A stretch of 38,099 nucleotides of DNA from a virus, in IMG/VR virus record IMGVR_UViG_3300033048_000121, positions 1-38,099 of that record; one strand, given 5' to 3'. Within the stretch, counting starts at the first letter, position 1. Each line of letters starts with the position of its first letter. Made by a program: the position numbers and the translations under genes. The notes beneath the pieces were generated by a model, which was given only the letters and a program-made list of their open reading frames with translations, made no database searches and was not told the DNA's origin. Positions 1 to 38,099 of this stretch are shown here, piece after piece.

Positions 1-70
1 AGCGGAGCTTGGGTATCAACGCTTGCTTGGTCTTGCTTTTGATCTTCTTTTTGTGTTCTTTTTTACTCAT
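1..70 (-). CDS. hsdS: type I restriction specificity subunit, N-terminal fragment (cut by window edge)
   Basis: An ATG at 68-70 on the minus strand lies inside the last codons of hsdR, whose TAA is at 63-65, so the two genes overlap by a few bases. It opens a frame that runs off the window edge after 23 codons. The visible peptide is lysine-rich and ends in ALIPKLR. Many HsdS subunits begin with a short basic stretch followed by 'PKLRFPEF', so the gene is most likely hsdS, the subunit that recognises the DNA target. Overlap with hsdR supports a restriction operon read leftward. Only 23 residues can be seen, so the family call rests on one short motif plus context. Confidence 0.5.
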   Translation of the reverse strand, partial: MSKKEHKKKIKSKTKQALIPKLR

Positions 71-3062
71 ACGCGCTGAGTCCTGAGATGTTTCGCCCTT
101 TGGCGCGCTTGTTGAGCAGTGGGACGAGGTCGTCCATGAGGGCGAGTTCGCAGCCGGTGCGTTCTTTCCAGCCCAGGTCCAGCGGCCCGAGGAGATCGAC
201 GAGTAGCTCGCCGTCGAAGATCATGCGGGTGAGGATGGTGTCCACGAAGGATTGCAGCGAGTCCGATGAAAGCCCATGCTTCTCGGCGACGGCGGCGAGT
301 TCTTTGGTGTGCTTCTTTGCCGTGAAGCGTTCGTAGCCGGCGCGGATATCTTTTTCATCGAGCCCTTGGCCGACCTTGAGGGTGTCGATGTAGTCGGCGA
401 TGTCCTCGCCTTCGTCCATGAACTTGGCATCGGATTGGATGAGCCCGACGAGTTGCTCGCGGGACATCTTCTCTTTGCTGCCCGGTGCTTGCTGGGAGTA
501 GTCGGCGATGAGTTTCATGATGTAGTCGTAGTCGATGATGGCCGAGGCGAAGAGTACGAACTCGAAATCGAGTTGATCGACTTCGGGGTTGGTTTCATCT
601 CCGCCCTTGGCTCGTTGGTCTTTGAGTTGCTTGGCGGTTTCGAGGTAGACGCCTCGGAAGGCTTGCAGGTTGTCCTTTGGAAGGACAAGCTCGATGGCGT
701 CCTTGTTGTCGTCGGTGAGGTCGGTGTATTGGTCGAGTTGGGTCTGGAGGCGTTGGACATCTTTGAAGCGTTTGACGAACTGGGCCCGGGCCTGGTCGCC
801 TTGGAGATTGGGTACATCTTCGGGTGCGGCGGTGAGCCCTTGGGATTGCATGAACTCTTCGAGCTCTTGCATCGCGGTGTGGAGTTTCTCGATGACGACG
901 GGGGCTTCATCGACGAGCCAGATTTCGCGTGCCTTGTCGCCTTCGGCACCGGAGAAGAGTGCGATGGCGGCATCGACCGAGTCTTTTTGTTGTCGGAAGT
1001 CGAGGATGTTGCCGTAGGGCTTGGTGGCGTTGAGGATGCGGTTGGTGCGGGAGAACGCTTGGATGAGTCCGTGGTGCTTGAGGTTTTTGTCTACATAGAG
1101 CGTGTTGAGGTATTTGGAATCGAAGCCGGTGAGGAGCATGTCCACGACGATGGTGATGTCGATCTTTTCTTTGTGCGGATGGTCTTCATTGGGGAACTGC
1201 TGATCTTTGATGCGTTTTTGGACATCTTGGTAGTAGAGATCGAACTCGCTGATTTTGTGATTGGTGTTGTAGCGTGTGTTGTAGTCTGCGATGATTTCTT
1301 TGAGGGCTTTCTTCTTGCCTTCGGGATCTTGCTCGTTGTCCGCTTTCTCTTGCGGCAGGTCTTCTTGCAACTGCTTGACATTGGGATCGCCATCTGCGGG
1401 CGGGGAGAAGACGCATGCGATATTGAGCGGGGTATATTCTGGATCGTCAGTTTGCTTCTGGGACTGCAAATCCTTGAAGACTTCGACATACTCGATCGCG
1501 TCGTTGATTGATGCGGTGGCGAGGAATGCATTGAATCGTCGGCCGCCGGTAGCGGTGTTGTGTGTGTGGAGGATTGCTTCAGCGACGGGCTTCTTGTCAA
1601 GGCCTTGGCCTTTGGGAGGGCTTTCGCCTTCTGGCTTGTAGTAGTCCACATGGAATCGGAGGACATTGCTGTCCTCGATGGCATGAGTGATTGTGTAGGC
1701 GTGGAGTGGCTTCTGAAAGAGGTCTTCAGTGGTTTTCATCGACTCCTGATCGCCATCGATTTTCTTCTGCGTGGCGTTGGCTTCGAAGATGGGGGTGCCG
1801 GTGAAGCCGAAGAGTTGTGAGTTGGGGAAGAACGCCTTGATGGCTTTGTGGTTTTCGCCGAACTGGGAGCGGTGGCACTCGTCGAAGATGAAGACCATTC
1901 TCTCATCACGGAGCGGCTGGAGCCGTTCTTTGTATGTTCGCTCGCCCTTTTTCATTCGTTTCTTGCTGTGCTTGCTGTTTTCGTCGAGGGCAAGGCCAAG
2001 CTTCTGGATGGTGGTGACGATGACCTTGTCGGCGTAGTCATCAGAGAGAAGACGACGAACAAGTGTCTCGGTATTGGTGTTTTCTTCGACGCAATCTTCC
2101 TGGAACTTATTGAACTCCAAGCGTGTCTGCCGATCGAGGTCCTTGCGGTCAACAACGAAGAGGCACTTCTTGATGTCATCGTTGTCCTTGAGGAGGGTGG
2201 AGGCCTTGAACGATGTCAGGGTCTTGCCGCTTCCTGTGGTGTGCCAGATATAGCCGTTGCCGCAGTTCTGGTCGATGCAATCTACGATTGCTTTGACGGC
2301 ATAGATCTGATACGGACGCATCATCATCAACTTCTGCTCGCTGGCGATGAGGACCATGTAGCGGCTGATCATTTTGCCGAGGGTGCATTTGGCGAGGAAT
2401 GCATCTGCAAAATCGTCGAGATGAGATATCTTCGAGTTATCCTCGGCTGCATACTGATAAACCGGCAAAAACCGCTCATCAGCATTGAAACTGAAGTGGC
2501 GGGCGTTGTTGTTGGCAAAGTACCAAGTTTCGGTGCGATTGCTGGCGATGAAAAGCTGCATGTAGCAGAGCAGTGTATTGGTATACCCATTGCCGGGATC
2601 GTTTTTGTAATCGACGATCTGTTCGATGGCTCGGCGAGGGCTGATTCCAAGGGTTTTGAGTTCGATCTGAACTGAGGGAATCCCATTGATGAGCAGGATG
2701 ACATCGTAGCGATGATGGCTGTTGTCGGTGTTGATACGGAGTTGGTTGATCACCTCGAAGGTGTTCTTGCACCAGTCTTTGATGTTGACCAACATGTAGT
2801 TCAGTGGCGTGCCGTCATCACGGGTGAAACTGTTGCGTTCGCGGAGTTTTTTTGCGGCGGCATAGACATCCGGTGTGATGATGTCCTCAAGAAGGCGTTT
2901 GAACTCACTGTCCGTTAGTTTGACTCGGTTGAGTGCCTGGAATTTCTCTCGAAAATTCTTTTCTAAAGCGGCGCGATCACGGATATCCTCGCGGTGCTCA
3001 TACTTTAAGCCACGGAGCTTTTGGATAAAGTCCTTTTCAAGTTGTCGTTCGAGTGTGGTCAT
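63..3062 (-). CDS. hsdR: type I restriction endonuclease, HsdR motor/nuclease subunit
   Basis: About 999 residues from the ATG at 3062, a usual HsdR length. The N-terminal nuclease domain shows D...ELK (about D120, E134, K136) in VILLINGIPSVQIELK. The superfamily 2 motor follows with Walker A TTGSGKT (about 275-281), the box FIFDECH (about 391-397), then GFTGTP and a second RecA-like domain with QAFSRTNR. In the HsdMRS complex this subunit translocates DNA and cuts it away from the recognition site. The start at 3062 gives the family-typical MTTLERQLEKD with an AAGG SD 5 bases upstream. An in-frame ATG at 3170 would add 36 atypical residues without an SD; a TATGAT-like -10 lies at 3180-3185. 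hsdS follows with overlap; hsdM is not in the window. Confidence 0.93.
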   Translation of the reverse strand: MTTLERQLEKDFIQKLRGLKYEHREDIRDRAALEKNFREKFQALNRVKLTDSEFKRLLEDIITPDVYAAAKKLRERNSFTRDDGTPLNYMLVNIKDWCKNTFEVINQLRINTDNSHHRYDVILLINGIPSVQIELKTLGISPRRAIEQIVDYKNDPGNGYTNTLLCYMQLFIASNRTETWYFANNNARHFSFNADERFLPVYQYAAEDNSKISHLDDFADAFLAKCTLGKMISRYMVLIASEQKLMMMRPYQIYAVKAIVDCIDQNCGNGYIWHTTGSGKTLTSFKASTLLKDNDDIKKCLFVVDRKDLDRQTRLEFNKFQEDCVEENTNTETLVRRLLSDDYADKVIVTTIQKLGLALDENSKHSKKRMKKGERTYKERLQPLRDERMVFIFDECHRSQFGENHKAIKAFFPNSQLFGFTGTPIFEANATQKKIDGDQESMKTTEDLFQKPLHAYTITHAIEDSNVLRFHVDYYKPEGESPPKGQGLDKKPVAEAILHTHNTATGGRRFNAFLATASINDAIEYVEVFKDLQSQKQTDDPEYTPLNIACVFSPPADGDPNVKQLQEDLPQEKADNEQDPEGKKKALKEIIADYNTRYNTNHKISEFDLYYQDVQKRIKDQQFPNEDHPHKEKIDITIVVDMLLTGFDSKYLNTLYVDKNLKHHGLIQAFSRTNRILNATKPYGNILDFRQQKDSVDAAIALFSGAEGDKAREIWLVDEAPVVIEKLHTAMQELEEFMQSQGLTAAPEDVPNLQGDQARAQFVKRFKDVQRLQTQLDQYTDLTDDNKDAIELVLPKDNLQAFRGVYLETAKQLKDQRAKGGDETNPEVDQLDFEFVLFASAIIDYDYIMKLIADYSQQAPGSKEKMSREQLVGLIQSDAKFMDEGEDIADYIDTLKVGQGLDEKDIRAGYERFTAKKHTKELAAVAEKHGLSSDSLQSFVDTILTRMIFDGELLVDLLGPLDLGWKERTGCELALMDDLVPLLNKRAKGRNISGLSAYE

Positions 3063-3307
3063 GGCTGCCTTGAAATGAGATGGGCCTTTGTGTCGCACAT
3101 CGCTTGCTTGATCCTGTATGACGGTATTTTCAAAGAGCCTACTCTCCTTGCCTTGACGGCTAACAGACATACGGTTGGTATCATAGCCGATGTTGGTTGG
3201 ATTTGTCTGTTGTTCGGGTAAACTGACAGCTTGATGTCAGTCACGACTTTGCGGATTGCTCTGTTCAGAGAATCTATGCGTGTAATTGTGCCCATGCAAT
3301 CGGCCTC

Positions 3308-4432
3308 TTACACCAGCGTTGACAGGCCTGTCATTGATGTCGCTGATTGCAAGCCGCTGGAACCACCGCCAGAAGAACTGGCGAAGCTTGAGCCGCTGGA
3401 CTTGCCGCCGGAGCCGCTGCCTGAACCGGAACCGCCGCCGCTTGAGCCGCCTCCACTTGAACCTGCACCGCTGAGTCCGCCGCCGAGACTTGATGCGCCG
3501 GCTTTGGCTATGTCGTTGTGGGTCCAGACGCCTTCGGCGAGGTAGGTGTTGGTGCCGGGGATGTGGAGGGAAACGGTTCGGGTTGAGGCGTTGATGTGTT
3601 CGATGGTGGTGATTGGTTCTTCGTTCAGATCGGCCTCGATGAGTTGGTCGCCGATCTGGAGTTGTTCGGCGGCACAGAAGCCCCATTCGTCGGCTCGTCG
3701 GATGAGCATGGGGTGTTCGAAGGTGAGTTTGAGTCGGCGGTTGATGACATAGAAATCGTCGTGGGTTCCGAGGGTGATTTGGCCGACGGGGGATGGGGTG
3801 ATGCGTGAACCATTGAGTCCGGACTCTGATCGCCAATCGTACTGGGCTTGCCAGTCGGCGTCGGGTTCGAGGCCGGGGATGGAGAGAGACATCAATAGGT
3901 CGCCGGGGGTGAGTGATTCGATGGGGACTCGGTTGCCGTCGGCTTTGGTGACGAGTGTGCCAAAGAGGAAGCAGTTGGATGAACCGCCACCAGAAGAGCC
4001 GCCTCCAGAGGAACCACCGCCTGATGATCCACCACCTGAACTGCCTCCGCCTGAAGACCCTCCACCGGATGACCCACCTCCCGAGCTGCCGCCACCTGAA
4101 CTTCCGCCGCCACTCGAGCCGCCACCAGTGGAACCACCACCGCTCGATCCTCCGCCAGAAGAACCGCCTCCGCTTGAACCAGCACTGCTGCCTGCTGACG
4201 AACCAACGCCGGAGCTTTCGAGTGTGCTTTGGGCGGAACTATTTGGCGGCGTTGAACTGCTTTCGAGTGTGCTGTTGGCCGAGCTTCCCGGCGTGGTGCT
4301 GCTGTTGCTACTCCCGCTCCACTCGGTGCTCACGATCGACGAACTTGAAAGCGTGCTCGATCCGCCGCCGGTTGGGGCTTGGCCGGTTGCCCAGACGGGG
4401 AGGTATAAGTAGTATTGCGTGGGTGTCGGCAT
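3308..4432 (-). CDS. Hint (intein-like) domain protein with Gly/Ser repeat arms, last gene of the phage late block
   Basis: 374 residues from the ATG at 4432, 8 bases after the previous gene's stop; a longer frame to 4498 would overlap that gene. Residues 1-87 are Ser/Thr/Gly-rich. Residues 88-152 are 13 tandem GGGSS-type units. A Hint domain runs from Cys154 (CFLFGTLV) through SLTPGDLL and FEHPML to EGVWTHND, with the terminal His-Asn at 305-306 followed by Asp. The last 68 residues are again Gly/Ser-rich. Hint domains autocleave or splice using the first Cys and the terminal Asn; a non-nucleophile after HN resembles type A bacterial intein-like domains, which process surface proteins. Position distal to the tape-measure and tail genes suggests a fibre, tip or appendage protein. 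The role is inferred; the Hint call is secure. Confidence 0.8.
   Translation of the reverse strand: MPTPTQYYLYLPVWATGQAPTGGGSSTLSSSSIVSTEWSGSSNSSTTPGSSANSTLESSSTPPNSSAQSTLESSGVGSSAGSSAGSSGGGSSGGGSSGGGSTGGGSSGGGSSGGGSSGGGSSGGGSSGGGSSGGGSSGGGSSGGGSSGGGSSNCFLFGTLVTKADGNRVPIESLTPGDLLMSLSIPGLEPDADWQAQYDWRSESGLNGSRITPSPVGQITLGTHDDFYVINRRLKLTFEHPMLIRRADEWGFCAAEQLQIGDQLIEADLNEEPITTIEHINASTRTVSLHIPGTNTYLAEGVWTHNDIAKAGASSLGGGLSGAGSSGGGSSGGGSGSGSGSGGKSSGSSFASSSGGGSSGLQSATSMTGLSTLV
3977..4171 (-). repeat. 15-bp tandem repeat encoding 13 GGGSS units
   Basis: Thirteen consecutive 15-base units encode GGGSS (one GGGST) just before the Hint cysteine. Codons vary between units, so the array is not a very recent exact duplication, but such arrays commonly change in copy number by slippage. 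The peptide would be a flexible linker about 65 residues long. Confidence 0.9.
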
Positions 4433-4440
4433 GGCGGTTC

Positions 4441-5331
4441 TCAGTTTGCTTTGGTGGCGGGTGTGTACCAGCCTGTGGTGTTGATGGGTTTGCTGCACTC
4501 GCTGGCGGCTTGCTTGATCGCGTCTTCATAGCTCATGCGTTCGAAGACGGACAGGTCGCTGCCGGGTGAGCAGTTGACGACGCGGAAGTTGTGCTGCTCG
4601 AAGTGTGGCAGCAAGGCCTCGAAGCGTTTGGTCAGCGATTCGTAGAGCGTGTTGTTGTACCGGATGACATTGGGGGCGCGTGCTTCATCGAAGGCATACC
4701 GGTGATCGTCGGCCATCTTGAAATCACAGCCCAGTAAATACACCGTGCGGAAGCCGAGGTGGTGAAGTAATCGGAGGGCGACGAGCATGACGCTGCGTTT
4801 GCCCTTGATTCCAAGTGTGTCGGGCTGGTTGCCATCGTTTCCCCAGGGCACGGTATCGCCGGTCAGGAATCGTTCGTGGTCGAAGTGATTGCTGCGTCGG
4901 TAGAAGAGTACGCTGGGCATCTGGCTGACATGGAAGGCGCTGGGCTGCATTCCGCCGTCGGGTTTCTGGATGCGGAGTTGACGGACTCGGTGGCACATTG
5001 GTACGAGTTTGAGGATGCCGGGGTCTTTCCAGCCGGTGTCGATGAATCGGCCCGGGTCATCGACACAGGTCCAGAGGGTTGGTCGGTGAATAGTCCAGGC
5101 GTTGTTGACGCCCATCGTGACGATGCCGCGTTGATTGAGGAGTGAGAGATCGAGTTGGTTGAGCGATGGGCCAGAGAGCATGAGGAACACCGACCGGCCT
5201 CGGTAGAAGTTGGCCATAGAAATGGAATCGAAGTCGGCGGTGTAGAGCCGAAGACCCGAACGCGCAGGCGTGCGATTCTTGAGCCCGTTCTGGAGTGCGG
5301 TAATGTCGGATTGATTGGGACGGTTGATCAT
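4441..5331 (-). CDS. DUF115-like / MptE-like Rossmann-fold protein
   Basis: 296 residues. The N-terminal third has FLMLSGPSLNQLD followed by GIVTMGVNNAW, and a later segment reads RTVYLLGCDFKMADD. A glycine-Pro-Ser-Leu loop, then 'GVNNA', then 'LLGCDF' is the pattern I associate with DUF115/MptE-like proteins and phage or surface-sugar enzymes with a sialyltransferase-like nucleotide-sugar fold. The reaction is unknown. It starts with ATG at 5331, overlapping the methyltransferase stop by ATGA, and precedes the Hint gene, so these three end the late operon. It could modify a tail protein or a surface glycan. Assignment is from motifs only. Confidence 0.55.
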   Translation of the reverse strand: MINRPNQSDITALQNGLKNRTPARSGLRLYTADFDSISMANFYRGRSVFLMLSGPSLNQLDLSLLNQRGIVTMGVNNAWTIHRPTLWTCVDDPGRFIDTGWKDPGILKLVPMCHRVRQLRIQKPDGGMQPSAFHVSQMPSVLFYRRSNHFDHERFLTGDTVPWGNDGNQPDTLGIKGKRSVMLVALRLLHHLGFRTVYLLGCDFKMADDHRYAFDEARAPNVIRYNNTLYESLTKRFEALLPHFEQHNFRVVNCSPGSDLSVFERMSYEDAIKQAASECSKPINTTGWYTPATKAN

Positions 5332-14182: not shown

Positions 14183-15106
14183 TTACACCTCGCCCTTGCT
14201 CTTGACCGCTGCGCGGTGGTCTTGCATCGCCACGCCGAAGTCGAAGTAGCCACGCCACTGCATGCCCAGTGTGTTGAAATCGGTCTCGCCGGATTCGATC
14301 GTGGGTGTGCGCTTGCCGCGCAGGTACGCGATCTCGATGGCCGCGACATCGGCTGGGTTGGCCAACAGATACCACGCCTTGGGGCTGCCGCCGGTGATTC
14401 CCTGAGCGTTGAGGTACGGCGAGGCGACCGGATTCCACTTGCCCGCGTGCGGATTAACCGCTGGCTTGGGCTTGTTGGTGTCGGTGACTTCGTTGACCCG
14501 GGTTTCGGTCATCAGCACCTGCGCCGAGACCTTGAGCGACGAAGGCACCAGCAGCACCGATGGCGAGAGCAAGACGGGCTTGCCTTCCGAATCGGTTTGA
14601 TCAAGGAACACCTGCTCGGCTTTGGTCAACGCGTCGATCGACAACGCAGTGTCCGCGCCAGCGAGGAAGTTTTTGTTGGCCGCGTCGAAGAAGTTCGAAG
14701 GATTGGACAGCAGCAACTCAAAGACGGCTTCCTCACGCTTGAGCGCGGACATCCGCCCGATCAAACGCGGAATTTGCAAGAATGCGCCAAGATCATCGTT
14801 GATCATCATCTGCCGGGTGAGCGAGATCATCCGCCCGAAGGTTTCGACCTTATTCTTGAACGCCTGCTCGCTCAAACCAGCGTGCTTGAGTTCGCCGTCT
14901 GGGCCGACCTTCTCGAAGACGCCATTGCCGGTGAGCCGGTAGCGGGTCACTTCCTTGAAGTCGTTCACATCGGTTTCGGCGCTGAACTGAGCGACCACAC
15001 TTTCGACCGCGTTGTACGCCGCGAGCATGGTTTTGTTGGCGACATTGGACAGGATGCCAGAAAGTGAGACCGTGCTGAATCCACCTCCACCGGCTGCCTG
15101 GATCAT
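14183..15106 (-). CDS. major capsid protein (Mu gpT/HK97-fold type), downstream part of a protease-capsid frame
   Basis: 307 residues from the only in-frame ATG after the TGA at 15155-15157. Key segments: FSTVSLSGILSNVANKTML near the start, DFKEVTRYRLTG, RMISLTRQMMINDDLGAF, and AWYLLANPADVAAIEIAYL. These are typical of the capsid half of 'prohead protease/major capsid protein fusion' chains. The 16 codons between the TGA and this ATG continue the same frame and look like native capsid N-arm (IDNETIRAAFAANGR), and the ATG lacks a good SD. So the capsid protein may come from readthrough, reinitiation, or be lost by a nonsense mutation. Confidence 0.85.
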   Translation of the reverse strand: MIQAAGGGGFSTVSLSGILSNVANKTMLAAYNAVESVVAQFSAETDVNDFKEVTRYRLTGNGVFEKVGPDGELKHAGLSEQAFKNKVETFGRMISLTRQMMINDDLGAFLQIPRLIGRMSALKREEAVFELLLSNPSNFFDAANKNFLAGADTALSIDALTKAEQVFLDQTDSEGKPVLLSPSVLLVPSSLKVSAQVLMTETRVNEVTDTNKPKPAVNPHAGKWNPVASPYLNAQGITGGSPKAWYLLANPADVAAIEIAYLRGKRTPTIESGETDFNTLGMQWRGYFDFGVAMQDHRAAVKSKGEV

Positions 15107-15154
15107 TCGCCCGTTTGCTGCGAATGCTGCGCGAATTGTTTCATTGTCGATGCG

Positions 15155-16282
15155 TCAGGGTCGAACATAATCACCAGCCGCGTGGATCGTCTCGTAGATC
15201 AGCGTGTGCAGCCCGGCCCCTTGCAGATCTCGGGCAACCGCCGCATTCATCGTCTTCTCGTCGTACCACTTGCCGACTTGCGATTCGGGAACCCCCGCCG
15301 ACAGGCACATGGCCGCTTCGAGGGCTCGCCCGGATTGGGCTTGATCCGCGTCTTTGCGCACGCCGCCACGGGTCAAGGTTGGACGCTGGGCGCGGAGGAC
15401 TTCGAGTTCGGTGTGGTTGGTATCCCAGCCCTCAGCGATAGCATTCGCTTCGATCACATCGTGCTTTCCAGCACAGATGCGCCGAACCGCCGAGATGCGT
15501 GTGGTCTCGGCGGCGGTCTCAGCCCGGATACGGGCGATGACATCCATGTCACCACCCGCACCATTTCCACCTTCAGCTTCCTTGCCGGTCGGTTGGGCTT
15601 GCTCAGCTTCGAACATGGCCTGCAGATTGGTCGTTTGTGTTTCGGTGAGCGCCTCGGGATCGAACCCCTTTGCTTCGAGCCATTGAGTGAATTTCATGTC
15701 GTCCTCCTTGACGATGTGTTGTGAGTTGGTTTGATGCATGCGTGAAGCCGCGACGCTCGCGCTCGTGTTGTCATCTGCGCCCAGTGCGACGAAGCTCACT
15801 TCGCCGAGCATCGATTTGCGTGCGATATGTACCGGGCCGGCGAACTCTCGCCCGTTGGCCATTGCCTTCTTGCCCTTGGGCACGAACTCCATCTGTCCAG
15901 ACATCGCACCAAGCGACGCCTGCCAGGGGAATCCGTTTCGGCTGCTCTCGATGATCTCTTTGGCGACCGCCCCGGCTCCCGAGATCACACCCGATACGAG
16001 CAACTGGTTGCCCTCGATGCGGATTGATTCGGTATGCCCGACGATCAACGATCGGTTGTGATCCTTGAGGATCGGGCGGCTCTTGATCTGCCCGCCCGCG
16101 ATCTCCATCCCGGCTAGATCAACCACGACCGGGTGTGCCCAACCCGCGAGGATCATCGGCCCGCCGGTGTAGGCGATCATCGAGAACCGGCGCAAGCTCG
16201 GCGCGTTGTCATTGCTGGAATCGCTCGCTTCGGTCCATTGCTCGATCGGAGCCGCCAGATTGAGCAGGTGTTTAGTTTTCAT
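15155..16282 (-). CDS. prohead protease with scaffold region (fusion frame truncated by in-frame TGA)
   Basis: 375 residues. Residues about 30-185 form the prohead protease: PILKDHNRSLIVGHTESI with the catalytic-type His, WQASLGAMSG with the Ser, and a later MLGEVSFVALGAD. Residues about 196-300 are a charged, Ala/Glu-rich scaffold-like segment, and the last 75 continue into the capsid-type region (YETIHAAGDYVRP). The frame then meets TGA but stays open through the capsid gene, 392 codons from ATG to ATG. In related phages protease, scaffold and capsid are one chain cut by the protease. Start ATG at 16282 overlaps the portal end and has a GGGGAG SD. Confidence 0.85.
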   Translation of the reverse strand: MKTKHLLNLAAPIEQWTEASDSSNDNAPSLRRFSMIAYTGGPMILAGWAHPVVVDLAGMEIAGGQIKSRPILKDHNRSLIVGHTESIRIEGNQLLVSGVISGAGAVAKEIIESSRNGFPWQASLGAMSGQMEFVPKGKKAMANGREFAGPVHIARKSMLGEVSFVALGADDNTSASVAASRMHQTNSQHIVKEDDMKFTQWLEAKGFDPEALTETQTTNLQAMFEAEQAQPTGKEAEGGNGAGGDMDVIARIRAETAAETTRISAVRRICAGKHDVIEANAIAEGWDTNHTELEVLRAQRPTLTRGGVRKDADQAQSGRALEAAMCLSAGVPESQVGKWYDEKTMNAAVARDLQGAGLHTLIYETIHAAGDYVRP

Positions 16283-17747
16283 CGTCGTTCTCCCCGTTTG
16301 ATTTGTTGTCCGCAGGGGTCAACCGCTCGATGCGTTCGTCCTGCAATCCGAGTTCCTGCATGAAGGCCACTTCTTTGGCCCGTTGGCGGAGTTCGGTTTC
16401 CCAGTCGCGACCTTGCCGGGCGTACTCATTGGCAAGCGTGGTAGTGTGCGAGGACAACCGGGTTGCTTGCGCATTTGCTTCCTTGGCCGGATCAACATGC
16501 TCGGTGCCGTCCCAGAACCATTGGTGCGACACACCGATACCCGAGGCAATCTGCGTTCGCAGACGGAGCGGAATCAAGTCCGAAACAAGCACGGCTTCAT
16601 CGAGCCAGGCCGAGAGAATCCGATCGAGCACCGAGCACGCAAGGTGTTCCTGCTCGACACGGATGTTCTTAAAATATCCCTGATGGTCGAGCCGACCCGA
16701 GGCGTAGTTGTATCCGCTGCTATTGCCCGCCGCGATGTTGAACGGCATGTTGAGACACCGGGCGATCTCGTTGAGAATCTCCCGCTTGAACTCGGCGTAG
16801 GTCGTCGCTGGTTGCTCGGCCTTGAGCTGCGCCATCTTCCACCCGCCGGGCATCGTGAGCAACGATCGTGCTTCAAGTTCAATCGCGTCCATCGGTTCGA
16901 CCGCTTCGGCCTCGCCGTTGGCGGGTGTGTCGGTGTAGAGAATGCCCGCAAAGTCGGCCGCCGTCTCGGCTGCGCCAAGCACGGCCAGCGTGAATCGCCG
17001 CAACTGTGAAAAGAGTGGCAACGCGGGCGTGATGTCCGGAATCCCTCGGCTTTGCCCCGCACGATCCGCGCGGAAGTAGTGAATCACAGACTCAGCAGGC
17101 ACGCGGTCGTATTCGATCCCGAGGAATCCGGTGCGTGCATCGCCCGGATGCCCCTTGAGCATGTGATATTCGACCGGGTTGCCAAATGAATCGAACACGA
17201 TCCCATCGACGGCTCCATCATCGAGTATCGAGAGGTCGGGCGTGGTCACCTGATCGGCTTCGATGAGCCGAAGGTCGAGTTTGATCGGCGAACGAAGATT
17301 GGGATTGCTGGTCAGGACGACGAACATCTCGCCATCGGTCGCCCGAGCCATTCGCATGGTACGGAGTTTCTCTGGAAGCCCGATCTCCTTGCTCCACGCA
17401 GCGAAGGCATGTTCGAGCCGGGAGTTTCCGATTTCATCATCGGTGAGCAGTTGCAGCCGAGGACCGGTGCCAACAACATCGTTGGCAAGCGTGAGCACAA
17501 TCCCTTTGGCGTAAGAGTTGTTGGCGGTTTCGTATCGAGCACGATTACGAAGGATTCGTCGCACCTCAGGCGATGCGGCCGCGTCAGCACTCAAACCGTC
17601 GGCATGCATCCAATGGCGGCGATTGCCATCATTGGTCGCCGCTGAATCAAACCCTGCACGGATCATCCGACGGATAACGCCGCCCTTGGTCTGGGTCAGT
17701 GGCCTCGAATCAGCAGCAGATTTGGCACGAAATACCCACCGCATCAT
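16272..17747 (-). CDS. phage portal protein (lambda family)
   Basis: 491 residues, usual for lambda-type portals. Contains RNRARYETANNSYAKGIVLTLANDVVGTGPRL, split here as NNSYAKGIVLTLANDVVG, then ATDGEMFVVL, LIEADQV, GIVFDSFGNPVEYHML and a late segment NMPFNIAAGNSSGYNYASGR. These are the standard portal motifs. The dodecameric portal is the vertex through which terminase pumps DNA. ATG overlaps the gpW-like stop by ATGA; its 3' end overlaps the protease start by 11 bases. Confidence 0.92.
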   Translation of the reverse strand: MMRWVFRAKSAADSRPLTQTKGGVIRRMIRAGFDSAATNDGNRRHWMHADGLSADAAASPEVRRILRNRARYETANNSYAKGIVLTLANDVVGTGPRLQLLTDDEIGNSRLEHAFAAWSKEIGLPEKLRTMRMARATDGEMFVVLTSNPNLRSPIKLDLRLIEADQVTTPDLSILDDGAVDGIVFDSFGNPVEYHMLKGHPGDARTGFLGIEYDRVPAESVIHYFRADRAGQSRGIPDITPALPLFSQLRRFTLAVLGAAETAADFAGILYTDTPANGEAEAVEPMDAIELEARSLLTMPGGWKMAQLKAEQPATTYAEFKREILNEIARCLNMPFNIAAGNSSGYNYASGRLDHQGYFKNIRVEQEHLACSVLDRILSAWLDEAVLVSDLIPLRLRTQIASGIGVSHQWFWDGTEHVDPAKEANAQATRLSSHTTTLANEYARQGRDWETELRQRAKEVAFMQELGLQDERIERLTPADNKSNGENDDEN

Positions 17748-17944: not shown

Positions 17945-17988
17945 GATGGGAGTGGGGGAGTGCTTTGGGTGAGGTGAGTTTTTTTGGA

Positions 17989-18240
17989 TCAGTTCATGGA
18001 GCAGGCCGCCAAGCCACAGTCGGTGGCGGAGCGTTCACGCTTTCGTCTTCGTCGTTGTCGCTGGGCATAGGTTGCGACCGCCCGGGCGGGGTTGCGTCCT
18101 TCGAGCTTGGCGAGCCATGCTTCTTGGGCGGCATCTTCCCGATCACCCCAAGGCGTGAGCCGAAGCTCAAGTCCGAGCTTTGGGTGTTCTGGCAGCATCG
18201 CGGGCTGCTGGGTTTCAAGTTGGAGCTTCGACCTTGCCAT
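17989..18240 (-). CDS. small basic phage protein, unrecognised
   Basis: 83 residues: LGLELRLTPWGDREDAAQEAWLAKLEG then a highly basic stretch (RQRRRRKRER). An alternative frame (17994-18257) is less protein-like. The SD (GGTAG) is weak. It is the last minus-strand frame before the plus-strand toxin-antitoxin cassette and the first after it in transcription, so its upstream promoter or 5' end may have been altered when the cassette was inserted. Possibly a nucleic-acid-binding accessory protein; no family is recognised. Confidence 0.4.
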   Translation of the reverse strand: MARSKLQLETQQPAMLPEHPKLGLELRLTPWGDREDAAQEAWLAKLEGRNPARAVATYAQRQRRRRKRERSATDCGLAACSMN

Positions 18241-18412
18241 CTACCAAGTACTGTCACGAGCCAGGCTCAAATCCCGAAGATTTGAAGGTCGCAAGCGAGA
18301 TCGGTACAGATCTGGATGTAAGTTGTGAGACGGGGAGCTGGCCATGTTTCTATCAGTGAACCAGTCAGCTGTATAGCCTAAATATGGCCAGAAACGGGGA
18401 TGTAGTAGGAAA

Positions 18413-18474
18413 TTTATGCTTTTATGCCAAGGCCATAAAAAGACACTTGCTTTATGTGCCGAGGGTGGTAGAAT
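18413..18474 (+). promoter_or_regulatory. promoter/operator of the HigB-HigA-like cassette
   Basis: A -35 TTGCTT (18447-18452) and -10 TAGAAT (18469-18474), 16 bases apart, end only 5 bases before the toxin ATG, so the transcript would be essentially leaderless. Half-sites TTTATG at 18413, 18421 and 18451 and their inverse CATAAA at 18434 surround the -35 and are plausible binding sites for the HigA-type repressor encoded in the cassette. Confidence 0.5.
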
Positions 18475-18479
18475 GACTA

Positions 18480-18776
18480 ATGGAAATCGAATTCCGTGAC
18501 CCCGATTTCGATCGATTAGAAACCGATCCTGATTTCAATGCAGGATTTGGTCAAGCAATTGTGAAGGCATACAGAAAACGGGTTCAGTGGATTCGGGCAG
18601 CAAGGGATGAGAGAGATTTCTATGAGTTTAAATCGTGGCATTTTGAGAAGCTGCGAGGCAACAGAGGGCATCAACGGTCAATCCGACTGAATGATCAATG
18701 GAGGCTCATCATCGAGATCAAGGAATGTAATCCCAGCAATACGCTTGTGGTCGTAGGGATTGAAGATTACCACTAG
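18480..18776 (+). CDS. higB: RelE/HigB-type toxin
   Basis: 98 residues. Starts MEIEFRDPDFDRLETDPDF and shows RKRVQWIRAARDERDFYEFKSWHFEKLRG, then QRSIRLNDQWRLIIEIKE and a final VVVGIEDYH. The 'l....w.fekL.G.r.....iRlndqwRl.f' pattern is HigB, a ribosome-dependent mRNA interferase. The conserved basic/aromatic core and the C-terminal DYH are present. The antitoxin follows. The -10 box is so close that the mRNA is predicted to be leaderless, which would keep toxin yield low. AT-rich codons compared with phage genes indicate recent acquisition. Confidence 0.85.
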   Translation: MEIEFRDPDFDRLETDPDFNAGFGQAIVKAYRKRVQWIRAARDERDFYEFKSWHFEKLRGNRGHQRSIRLNDQWRLIIEIKECNPSNTLVVVGIEDYH

Positions 18777-18787
18777 AGGTGACAACA

Positions 18788-19915
18788 GTGAGTGCACGAG
18801 TACCAGCAGAAGTGTTCCCGCCCGGCGATTTTATCGCTGAGGAGTTGGATGCGCGAGGTTGGGCGCAGGAGGATCTTGCACGAATTTTGGCAAAGCCACT
18901 GCCTACGGTCAATAAGATTATAAAAGGGAAAACGGCAATCACGCCAGCCACAGCGAAGAAGCTTAGTGCAGCGTTTGGCACATCTGCTGAGTTGTGGATG
19001 AACTTGGAGTCATCTTGGCAATTGTATAGGGACTCAGATGACGAGTCTTCGTCAGAAGTAAGAGAGCGTGCCAGCATTTATGATTTGGCACCAGTCCGAG
19101 AAATGGTTCGTCGTGGGTGGATTCAGAAAACTGATTCCTCTGATGATCTTGTTCAAGAGCTTCGAAAGCATTTTGGGGTGGAAGATGTGTCCGAGGTTCC
19201 CGCTATAAGAGCTGCTGCCCGATCATCAACTCGAGGTGAATCTGGTGAAATCACCGCGGCACAATGGGCTTGGATGTGCAGGTGCAGAAATGTCTCAAGG
19301 CTTACGGATGCAAGTAGGTATCGGAAGAAAGATCTGATTGATTGCATACCAGAGCTTGTAGCGCTTTCCAGTCAGCCTGAAGAAATACGAAAATTGCCTG
19401 GGATGCTTGCTGATTGTGGCGTTCGAGTTGTATTGGTGAAGCATCTTAAAGGCACTGCTATTGATGGTGGTGCTCTCTGGTGCAACAAGACATCGGAACC
19501 CGTCGTAGGACTGTCAGCTAGGTTCGGGCGCTTAGATAATTTTTGGTTCACACTGATGCACGAAATTGCTCACATAATCGCAGGGGATGGAGTTGTTGCA
19601 GATTCAGAAATTGATCGGCAGAGTGATCATATTGATGTTGTTGAACAAAGAGCTAATCGGACGGCTGCGTCATGGTTGGTTCCTCAGGATGATTTAAGTT
19701 CGTTTATCAGAAGAACTTCCCCATTGTACAGTACTCGCAAAATTTTGAACTTTGCTCGCCGGATTAGAGTTCATCCATCGCTAATTGTTGGGCAGCTTAA
19801 GCATCGAGGAGAGGTGAGCTGGGACAAGTTTAATGGTATGAGTATTGATGTCCGCGATTATGCAAAACAGGCAATCATTCAAGACGGATGGGATGGGCCC
19901 GCACCTATCGAATAG
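18788..19915 (+). CDS. higA: HigA-type antitoxin fused to an ImmA/IrrE-like metallopeptidase
   Basis: 375 residues from GTG at 18788, which has AGAGG 8 bases upstream; GTG at 18779 (378 residues) is the alternative but would overlap this SD. N-terminal XRE/HigA HTH: PPGDFIAEELDARGWAQEDLA, then TAKKLSAAFGTSAELWMNLES. The second half is a COG2856 peptidase with HEIAH at residues 258-262 and a putative third ligand E286 in EQRANRTAASWLVP. The HTH would bind the toxin and operator; the peptidase may cut a regulator or the antitoxin itself, as ImmA does in ICEBs1. It lies 11 bases after higB and 8 before the third gene. Confidence 0.88.
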   Translation: MSARVPAEVFPPGDFIAEELDARGWAQEDLARILAKPLPTVNKIIKGKTAITPATAKKLSAAFGTSAELWMNLESSWQLYRDSDDESSSEVRERASIYDLAPVREMVRRGWIQKTDSSDDLVQELRKHFGVEDVSEVPAIRAAARSSTRGESGEITAAQWAWMCRCRNVSRLTDASRYRKKDLIDCIPELVALSSQPEEIRKLPGMLADCGVRVVLVKHLKGTAIDGGALWCNKTSEPVVGLSARFGRLDNFWFTLMHEIAHIIAGDGVVADSEIDRQSDHIDVVEQRANRTAASWLVPQDDLSSFIRRTSPLYSTRKILNFARRIRVHPSLIVGQLKHRGEVSWDKFNGMSIDVRDYAKQAIIQDGWDGPAPIE

Positions 19916-19923
19916 GAGTAAAA

Positions 19924-20430
19924 ATGGCAAAGCCAAAAAGAAAAACGAAGAACGAGATTCTTCAAGAAAAATCAGAGCAATGGCGTAAGCAAACAGGAAA
20001 CTCATCGATCAATCTCGCAGAAGTTGCGTCTTGGTTGATGAAGGAGGGGTGGGAGCCTGAGCCTGCAGATGCTCTAAAAATGCTCAAGCTCGAACTCCAG
20101 CGTGCTCTTAGGGAGCAATATATTGAAGATCCTCAGGGACGGAAAGTGCGTCAAAAACACCCTGAGCGTCGAATGGTTGAAATGAAAGACGGTAGCCACG
20201 AGCAATTTGTTCTCTGGCATGATATTCGAGAGGCAACTAGGCCAGAGATGCAAGCAGCTTTCCAGCAGCGTAGATTCGGTGTTGTACTTGATTGTCATCG
20301 TCTTAAAGTTGATGTTGATAGCTTCAATGAGAACTGGAACAAAAGCACTGAAATCCAAATGGAGTTTGATTTCAGAGATGACATGGCTGATCTTGATCAT
20401 GACATCGGGGATGATGAAGTTGATTTGTAA
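19924..20430 (+). CDS. third protein of the HigB-HigA/peptidase cassette, unknown function
   Basis: 168 residues from the ATG at 19924, with SD AGGAG in TAGGAGTAAAA; the frame is open back to 19888 but that part has no SD. Contains AEVASWLMKEGWEPEPADALKML, REQYIEDPQGRKVRQKHPER, RPEMQAAFQQRRFGVVLDCHRLKVDVDSFNENW, split as MQAAFQQRRFG and DVDSFNENW, and ends acid (DDMADLDHDIGDDEVDL). I recall similar proteins placed after HigA-peptidase fusions in many bacteria, with no known activity. Tight spacing suggests one transcript and a common job, perhaps as peptidase substrate or a second regulator. Confidence 0.75.
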   Translation: MAKPKRKTKNEILQEKSEQWRKQTGNSSINLAEVASWLMKEGWEPEPADALKMLKLELQRALREQYIEDPQGRKVRQKHPERRMVEMKDGSHEQFVLWHDIREATRPEMQAAFQQRRFGVVLDCHRLKVDVDSFNENWNKSTEIQMEFDFRDDMADLDHDIGDDEVDL

Positions 20431-20451
20431 AGATGATCAATCTAATCACAT

Positions 20452-20649
20452 TCACCGCATCGCTCGCTCGGTGGTTTTGATTCGTCGGCCGCAGGATCGG
20501 CATTGTCGGACTCTTCGCACCGAACCGAGTCGGTGTCGGGTGTAGAGGACTGGGAGGTGCTCGCAGCCGCAGGTTGGGCAGGCGAGCCCTTGGGTGATCT
20601 TGGTCGGCCGATCGGAGTGGCGTGTTTGCGTGTGGTCAGGGTTCGTCAT
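20452..20649 (-). CDS. small zinc-ribbon protein (NrdR-like ribbon)
   Basis: 65 residues. CPTCGCEHLPVLYTRHRLG followed by VRQCRSCGRRIKTTERAMR: two CxxC pairs spaced as in the NrdR N-terminal ribbon, without the NrdR ATP-cone. ATG at 20649 overlaps the terminase stop by ATGA. Small ribbons like this after terminase genes occur in phages and may be transcription factors of the Ogr type or DNA-binding accessories. Convergent with the cassette's third gene; 21 bases lie between the two stops. Confidence 0.7.
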   Translation of the reverse strand: MTNPDHTQTRHSDRPTKITQGLACPTCGCEHLPVLYTRHRLGSVRRVRQCRSCGRRIKTTERAMR

Positions 20650-36097: not shown

Positions 36098-37054
36098 TTA
36101 GTCGTAGTCCTGGTCCTCATCTTCTTCATCATGATGCGTGGAGTAGAACCCCCATGGTCGAAGCGCATCATCCGATGAGTCGTCGCCAAAATCTGAGCCA
36201 TATATCTCACCCGGAGGATCGTCACTACCCGAAATAAACATACCACCCCATGAGTTGTCATTGTCCTCCCATGGGTTGTAGTCATCGTAGTGAGAAAACT
36301 CCTCGTGCCAATCCTCTTCTTCATATTCACCTGAGTCATACTCAACCCAATCGTCGCCGTAGTCATCGTGTACTTCTTCAGGTTTAGCTGTTGGCGATAC
36401 TGTCAGCAGCTCTACTTGAGCCCGTGACTCGTATGCCTCGTCGGAATACCAACCAGACAACTGCAAGTAGCAGCGAAGCTCCATATTTGGCGCATCAGTA
36501 GGCGACCACCACCGTGCGAGGGATAGCCGAATTACACGGCCAGCTGGAAGTTCTTCTTCTGGCTTTCCTACTCCAACATATTTAATTGCAATGGGTGGCG
36601 TGATACCCACAGCCGTGTAGTAGGGCTTGCCATAGATCATGACGAGCTTAAGTGGCGAGGGCGACATCCAGAAACCCACACTGTTGCGAGGCACACCATA
36701 TCGCTTTGATATGAATCCACGGCCTCGAGCGGTAAATCGAATCAGCCCATCAAACAGCACATGCGGGTCGCCGATCCATGGATCATGCCGGTTTGTGACA
36801 AAGGCCCGCATAGTCCTCATCTCCCCGACCTTTTCTTCAAGGTTGACCACATAGTCTTCGACATGGGGAGGATTACATTCAACTGGGGTCGCCCGGACTT
36901 GCCAAATATCGCCGACTTCAATCATTGTTGATTTCGGCCATCCATGGGCGCCGGCCTTCGGCAGTAAGCGGATCAACTCACCGGATTCTTCATTGATGCC
37001 TCCGATGCAAACCCCGTCCCACATGCGTGTCTTTGCGGCAATAACGACGATCAT
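36098..37054 (-). CDS. acid-tailed protein of a DUF488 operon (possible dual OB-fold)
   Basis: 318 residues from ATG 37054 (ATGA overlap with the DUF488 stop); a frame open to 37123 is rejected. N-terminal 230 residues are beta-rich (MIVVIAAKTRMWDGVCIGGI, GDIWQVRATPVECNPPH, GRVIRLSLARWW) and resemble two successive OB-like barrels, as in proteins called 'dual OB' that accompany DUF488. Residues about 240-318 are extremely Asp/Glu/Tyr-rich (DDYGDDWVEYDSGEYEEED), which could mimic DNA or bind a partner. The fold call is tentative; the operon link is firm. Confidence 0.6.
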   Translation of the reverse strand: MIVVIAAKTRMWDGVCIGGINEESGELIRLLPKAGAHGWPKSTMIEVGDIWQVRATPVECNPPHVEDYVVNLEEKVGEMRTMRAFVTNRHDPWIGDPHVLFDGLIRFTARGRGFISKRYGVPRNSVGFWMSPSPLKLVMIYGKPYYTAVGITPPIAIKYVGVGKPEEELPAGRVIRLSLARWWSPTDAPNMELRCYLQLSGWYSDEAYESRAQVELLTVSPTAKPEEVHDDYGDDWVEYDSGEYEEEDWHEEFSHYDDYNPWEDNDNSWGGMFISGSDDPPGEIYGSDFGDDSSDDALRPWGFYSTHHDEEDEDQDYD

Positions 37055-37542
37055 GGCATGATGTGCTCCATAGGTAGGCCGGTTTGTTTCGCAAGTTCGT
37101 TCACGAGCAGTGATCGATGGCAAGCCTTAGGCTCACGCTCTACACAGAAAAAAACCGGGCGACGCGCATCACTCAGCGTGGTCTTAAGCAATGCCCAAGC
37201 GTCGAGGTCGATCAGATTGTCTTGGATGTATCGATTCACAAACGCTGCCCCAAGCTCCGTTCGGCTGCGCTTTGCTACCCCTTGTCGAGCGTCCTCGTCG
37301 TGCTGGGCATCACGCACTGCTGAGGATGGAGCGAGTTCTTTCACATGCATATATGTGATATTGAGCGATGCCAGGCGACTCTGCAAACGCTTGGAGTTGG
37401 CGAATGCGTACTGCGAACCTCGCAATCCTCGCCGTGCGCGCACATCACAGAAACAGTCAACTTGTTCTCTCTGCAACGCTTCGAAGAAGGAATCTTCGGA
37501 GAAGCCATAGACACCGATCGACATAAGAACTTCAGCTGCCAC
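37051..37542 (-). CDS. DUF488 domain protein (second of two)
   Basis: 163 residues from GTG 37542 (TAGTG overlap with the previous stop); ATG 37524 is an alternative. DUF488 pattern: MSIGVYGFSEDSFFEALQ then CFCDVRARRGLRGSQYA, FANSKRLQSRLASLNITYMHV and a final VFFCVEREPKACHRSLLVNELA, split as VFFCVEREPKACHRSLL. The Cys-x-x-x-x-x-x-CHRS motif is the family's likely active or metal-binding site. Activity unknown. It overlaps both neighbours, so the three genes are co-translated. Confidence 0.85.
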   Translation of the reverse strand: MAAEVLMSIGVYGFSEDSFFEALQREQVDCFCDVRARRGLRGSQYAFANSKRLQSRLASLNITYMHVKELAPSSAVRDAQHDEDARQGVAKRSRTELGAAFVNRYIQDNLIDLDAWALLKTTLSDARRPVFFCVEREPKACHRSLLVNELAKQTGLPMEHIMP

Positions 37543-38099
37543 TACTGCATCCCCTCCAATGACTCCGGCTCATAACGCCCGATCGATGTGAATGACTGAC
37601 CAAACAACGCGCCCTGACCTCTGGTAATCCGCTCTATTACAACTTGCTGAGAGACACGCTCGCCATCGCGATCTATGTGTGTTAACTCAGTGTCTTCTTT
37701 CTGGAGCGCCTGACCGATTAATTTTGACCGATGGCACCGCTCCGGATCGAGCTCACTGCACATAATTGCAACGCGGTGGCCTCCTGCGAGGGCAGTTCGT
37801 AAGCGTTCAAGACCAGATCGAAACGCAGGGCGCTGCTCGCATCGTGCGTAGTCAACTTTTCCATCAACATAGCATGATGGATCATCAGGCTTACCGCCTA
37901 ACTTATTGCCCATGAAAATATAGCGAATACCAGCCTGCTTGAGTAAAATTTGCAGGGCTTCATCGTTAAACTCAGGTTGGCGTGATCTCGGTTGTGAGCG
38001 GACATCGATCAAGTACTCAATACCGTGACGATGAAGCCGCTCTAGAAAGCTCTCCCAAGATCGATCACCATAGCCAATAGATGTCAGCAATCCAGACTT
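37542..38099 (-). CDS. DUF488 domain protein (first of two; 5' end may lie outside the window)
   Basis: At least 182 residues from a TTG at 38090; the frame is open to the window edge, so the real start may lie outside. LTSIGYGDRSWESFLERL, EYLIDVRSQPRSRQPEFN and VAIMCSELDPERCHRSKLIG are DUF488 motifs; the C-terminal CHRSKLI matches the second gene's CHRSLL. It differs from the second copy enough to be an old duplication rather than a recent repeat. TAGTG overlap with the next gene. Confidence 0.8.
   Translation of the reverse strand, partial: KSGLLTSIGYGDRSWESFLERLHRHGIEYLIDVRSQPRSRQPEFNDEALQILLKQAGIRYIFMGNKLGGKPDDPSCYVDGKVDYARCEQRPAFRSGLERLRTALAGGHRVAIMCSELDPERCHRSKLIGQALQKEDTELTHIDRDGERVSQQVVIERITRGQGALFGQSFTSIGRYEPESLEGMQ

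Follow-up and report, generated by a model that had tools for sequence, protein, structure and literature searches.

Introduction

Inside the protease gene C of phage lambda lies a second in-frame start with its own Shine–Dalgarno (SD) sequence, that of Nu3. Phage Mu (protease I, scaffold Z) and Pseudomonas Mu-like phages also carry an in-frame scaffold start within the protease gene (PMC4378225). In other phages, an N-terminal protease and a C-terminal HK97-fold capsid are joined in one chain, as in PHROG 4523 ('major head and protease protein') and PHROG 133, an example being gene 9 of Rhodobacter phage RcKemmy ('major capsid and protease fusion protein'). If each capsid subunit comes with a protease and a scaffold attached, one may ask how one protease per subunit is avoided. 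Here we describe a gene of this fused kind in a 38,099-base virus record of IMG/VR, the whole of which is referred to as the window, and compare it with about 100 related loci of Phycisphaerales and other Planctomycetota, drawn from viral contigs and MAGs.

Results

A protease–scaffold–capsid frame with a single break

On the minus strand, the frame from 16282 to 14183 consists of 375 codons, a TGA at 15157-15155, a further 323 codons and a TAA at 14185-14183. Translation confirmed the statement of an earlier note on this DNA that protease/scaffold and capsid share one reading frame: ATG 16282 and ATG 15106 are in phase, 392 codons apart, and the TGA is the sole break in the frame. Its main features are the following.

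14183..16282, minus strand: fused protease–scaffold–capsid frame, interrupted once (translation and profile matches; a single open chain in relatives)
16290..16295, minus strand: SD sequence GGGGAG of the primary start ATG 16282 (sequence; duplex -7.9 kcal/mol)
15158..16282, minus strand: protease (N-terminal beta domain) and helical scaffold, 375 aa (PHROG matches; structure model)
15155..15157, minus strand: TGA, at a position that is Gly (mostly GGN) in relatives (sequence; alignment with relatives)
14183..15106, minus strand: capsid ORF from ATG 15106, 307 aa, HK97 fold, no SD (Phage_capsid_4 and HK97-fold matches)

The protease–scaffold half matches phrog_3244 (head maturation protease, E 5.5e-17) and phrog_4523 (E 1.2e-6), and the capsid half matches Phage_capsid_4 (E 3.3e-45) and phrog_4523 (E 1.4e-73). 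Both parts of the PHROG 4523 fusion are recognisable in the window; the uninterrupted chain that goes with them is found in the related loci but is broken here by the TGA. For L002, an intact relative, AlphaFold (47-row alignment, mean pLDDT 73, pTM 0.49) predicts a beta-rich protease domain at about residues 30-177, scaffold helices at 200-376, a loop at 377-387, a helix at 388-407 and a capsid domain at 415-705. In a Foldseek comparison with the PDB, this model matched HK97-fold capsids, encapsulins and herpesvirus proteases at modest scores. The TGA falls at L002 residue 384, in the predicted inter-domain loop between scaffold and capsid. As judged from these sequences, protease, scaffold and HK97-fold capsid form one chain of about 700 residues in this family.

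The TGA is private to one record

The earlier note had stated that protease and capsid are fused in related phages, and the junction is indeed open in all of the roughly 100 related loci that can be read across it, apart from the frameshifted L075. The codon at the TGA position is nearly always Gly (GGN) in relatives and Gly in all close ones; the six closest have GGA, GGG or GGT, and the closest of all (89% at the DNA level, 99% in the capsid protein) carries GGA, a single base from TGA. A pattern search of viral_contigs for any stop (TRR) at the junction gave 17 matches, none adjoining a related capsid, and no DNA nearly identical to the locus turned up in viral_contigs when any base was allowed at the altered position, although the closest records may have been left out of that set. 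The TGA is thus private to this record by alignment, and the conservation among sister prophages that the earlier note had suggested looking for was not found in these relatives.

We also examined stop codon usage in the window. TGA ends most of the other likely genes, and TGAC ends three of them, the large terminase among them, so TGAC is an ordinary stop in this genome and neither recoding nor special leakiness is supported. The earlier note had pointed to C after the stop as the weakest stop context in E. coli; the C is present, but special leakiness is not supported by this usage.

The codons between the TGA and the next ATG bear on the age of the stop. Two features lie here.

15107..15154, minus strand: 16 codons between the TGA and ATG 15106, matching the family protein consensus exactly (codon comparison)
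15103..15144, minus strand: putative out-of-frame mini-ORF of 13 codons, its TGA overlapping the capsid ATG (ATGA; sequence)

The exact consensus match bears out the suggestion that these 16 codons encode a capsid arm. Their private changes number three, all of them synonymous, so they were translated until recently, for most of the window's own branch. Against L002, dN/dS is 0.019 (dS 0.40) in the capsid and 0.092 in protease/scaffold, values that place the divergence preceding the TGA change under protein-level selection, which is strong in the capsid half. The TGA would accordingly be recent, false or still read through. We prefer recent or false, because readthrough needs a new device in a single lineage and yields too little capsid. 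The mini-ORF, whose own ATG depends on a private synonymous change, is probably due to chance.

A conserved candidate internal start precedes the scaffold

A second potential start lies upstream of the TGA, between protease and scaffold.

15703..15709, minus strand: internal SD sequence AAGGAGG (conservation in the family)
15158..15697, minus strand: candidate internally started product from ATG 15697, scaffold only here (180 aa) and scaffold–capsid in relatives

ATG 15697 is in frame and follows the AAGGAGG by five bases (AAGGAGG-N5-ATG). Its predicted anti-SD duplex (-11.2 kcal/mol) is the strongest of the 49 in-frame start codons, compared with -7.9 kcal/mol for the primary start. An SD of at least 5 nt together with a start codon at residue 196 is present in 34 of the 47 aligned family rows, whereas other sampled positions reach at most 9 (median 0); the remaining 13 rows have no 5-nt SD at this site. 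Codon choice points in the same direction. Where Lys-Glu codons form the internal SD, 23 of 23 cases use AAGGAG; of the 57 Lys-Glu pairs at other places in these proteins, 25 do so (p=5e-7). Nowhere else in the gene are synonymous sites as conserved as in the stretch ending at the internal SD. L080 and Dulem virus 34 have a separate scaffold–capsid gene that starts at the same boundary. At the sequence level, therefore, an in-frame start with an SD between protease and scaffold, of the Mu I/Z and lambda C/Nu3 type, is conserved in this family.

These patterns suggest a two-start gene, which probably gives a full-length protease–scaffold–capsid chain and, in most of the family, a more abundant scaffold–capsid chain lacking the protease. 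The excess of the shorter chain would probably set the protease:capsid ratio. The earlier note had offered the TGA as a new means of setting this ratio and did not mention the ribosome-binding site at 15709-15697, which is the better candidate. The TGA is absent from all relatives, and one whose capsid protein is almost the same has GGA; stops of the TGA and TGAC kind are ordinary here; and the bridge codons bear the mark of selection on the protein. In the open-access literature searched, no paper on an internal start in a protease–capsid fusion was found.

Genomic context of the locus

Phycisphaerales MAGs are the closest hosts of relatives. In the relatives compared, counterparts were found for genes from about 3.3 to 32.8 kb of the window, and none for hsdR on the left or for the genes right of about 32.9 kb. 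The record is therefore probably a prophage with host flanks. One end carries a Type I restriction HsdR (63-3170) and the other a DuOB-domain protein and two DUF488 proteins (36098-38090), which are probably host flanks or cargo. Between the terminase and portal genes, an insertion at 17945-20645 encodes a HigB-like toxin, an HTH/IrrE-type protein and small genes, and has no DNA alignment with L002, L006 or L007. A Gly/Ser-repeat protein at 3308-4498 has a weak Hint-domain match, below the cutoff. The MAGs that contain three Phycisphaerales-type phage contigs (L101, L114 and L121) carry the labels Cyanobacteria, Alphaproteobacteria and Bacteroidia, which likely reflects mis-binning. Apart from the protease–scaffold–capsid frame, none of the phage-block genes is broken and no other obvious error was seen in them, so decay of the entire phage block was rejected. 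No tRNA gene or suppressor tRNA was found in the window.

Lone breaks also occur in relatives

Breaks in the fused gene of relatives served as controls. In L044 (641-2710), a CAG->TAG change lies inside the capsid core (LGM*WRGYF, where neighbours have LGMQWRGYF), at a position where no split could work. L069 (near 2310) and L117 (near 1558) have in common a lone TGAC in the protease–scaffold linker; the two assemblies are 99.97% identical and may share reads. The fused gene of L075 (about 700-1310) contains frameshifts, the second at the scaffold–capsid junction, which may be sequence errors or frameshifting. Lone breaks in the fused gene therefore do occur in such contigs. With the window left out, broken copies amount to 3 viruses in 68,631 codons of the fused gene and 0 in 81,262 codons of portal, terminase and others, an excess that is not significant (p=0.096). 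A stop near the capsid start of L121 was set aside, because this contig has low coverage and its capsid match does not start until residue 14.

Interpretation of the TGA

We read the locus as a two-start fused gene in which the TGA at 15157-15155 would be a recent private change from GGA (Gly), either a nonsense mutation or a consensus error, and would have no regulatory role; we give this reading as a whole a probability of roughly 0.74. Mutation and sequencing error were both among the alternatives of the earlier note, and they are favoured here by a stop that is private and one base from GGA. If the TGA is real, this copy would make protease–scaffold and scaffold but little or no capsid, and the prophage would be defective.

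Within this reading, a nonsense mutation in this prophage copy appears more likely than an error. In the latter case, which is possible though rather doubtful and whose share is already counted in the figure above, the true molecule has GGA and an intact fused chain. An error would fit a stop one base from GGA where all relatives are open, in a phage block that is otherwise intact and under selection. On the other hand, the record's phage genes show no other obvious error, and the lone stop of L069 and L117 recurs in two assemblies that agree to 99.97%, even if reads may be shared.

A different explanation is that the split is compensated: the TGA would end the protease–scaffold, and the capsid would be made separately from ATG 15106 by termination–reinitiation without an SD. 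Together with the internally started scaffold, this would give a lambda-like set of protease–scaffold, scaffold and separate capsid. ATG 15106 is the only in-frame ATG ahead of the capsid body, which is intact. Among the 323 codons of the capsid half, a single amino-acid change is private, Leu->Met (TTG/CTG->ATG), and it creates this ATG. The TGA and the ATG are both private and lie 48 nt apart. Of about 2600 other capsid-half changes in the family tree, 10 lead to Met in this arm. In GC3, the region upstream of ATG 15106 is low, within the lowest 6% of the gene, and its predicted structure is weaker than in most relatives; the TGA sits in the predicted inter-domain loop, where a break would harm least. 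The coincidence of TGA and ATG is suggestive, but it was noticed after the fact.

Several observations nevertheless make such a split unlikely. As the earlier note had stated for the only ATG in this region, ATG 15106 has no usable SD: its anti-SD duplex of -2.2 kcal/mol ranks 27 of 49 in-frame start codons, in a gene whose internal SD is very strong. Of the 11 amino-acid changes in the protease half on the window's tip branch, 3 likewise give Met. Some in-frame ATG in the capsid arm is present in 12 of 84 distinct relatives that are still fused. ATG 15106 also falls inside the predicted helix 388-407, the first part of which would be missing from both products, and the 16 bridge codons show no drift. 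Finally, by a general expectation (PMC6728339) the 48-nt gap should reduce termination–reinitiation coupling, while the capsid has to be the product made in greatest amount. Were the split true, it would illustrate the way in which head genes pass between the fused and the separate state.

Functional readthrough of the TGA, giving a minor full-length chain beside a major protease–scaffold, appears highly improbable. In E. coli, TGA leaks more than the other stops, with a mean readthrough of 0.5-5.6% depending on temperature in one reporter series (PMC11126739), and the bridge codons still look translated. However, a low rate would give too little of the capsid, the product needed most, and the window, most of whose likely genes end in TGA and three in TGAC, contains no tRNA. 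Programmed readthrough goes with conservation of both the stop and the coding sequence downstream of it; here the coding sequence is conserved but the stop is missing from all relatives. Reading of the TGA as Gly (code 25) or another residue would agree with the Gly codon of relatives, but an alternative code or suppressor tRNA was rejected and is practically excluded, as TGA is the usual stop, ending the terminase and most other likely genes, the window lacks a suppressor tRNA and the relatives are GC-rich Phycisphaerales, not a code-25 lineage.

Discussion

The TGA, a lone break confined to one record, is most likely unimportant as a device. For the planctomycete phage family, the question of protease dosage could have a simple answer in the conserved internal ribosome-binding site: two starts in one frame would give chains with and without the protease.

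Compared with termination–reinitiation coupled gene pairs (PMC6728339), the window likewise has a stop and then a start that would lie on one mRNA, but here with a 48-nt gap, without an SD and without conservation. In a split of this type, the start would be expected to overlap the stop or lie near it, usually with an SD. Unlike the fusions of PHROG 4523 and PHROG 133, the chain of this record is interrupted by a TGA where the scaffold meets the capsid. When distant fused phages were examined, the conserved AAGGAGG internal start of the planctomycete family proved to be missing or weak in them; RcKemmy alone has an SD of 5 nt, ahead of Met 215.

The proposed two-start arrangement resembles Mu I/Z and lambda C/Nu3 in its second in-frame start with its own SD inside the protease gene. 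It differs in that the internal product of Mu and lambda is the scaffold alone, whereas in the planctomycete family it would be scaffold–capsid, with the capsid fused on. In this respect the family resembles HK97 (gp4 protease; gp5, with the scaffold delta domain fused to the capsid), Dulem virus 34 and L080, where the scaffold is likewise fused to the capsid and the separate scaffold–capsid gene begins at the place of the planctomycete internal start. In those three, however, the protease is a separate gene.
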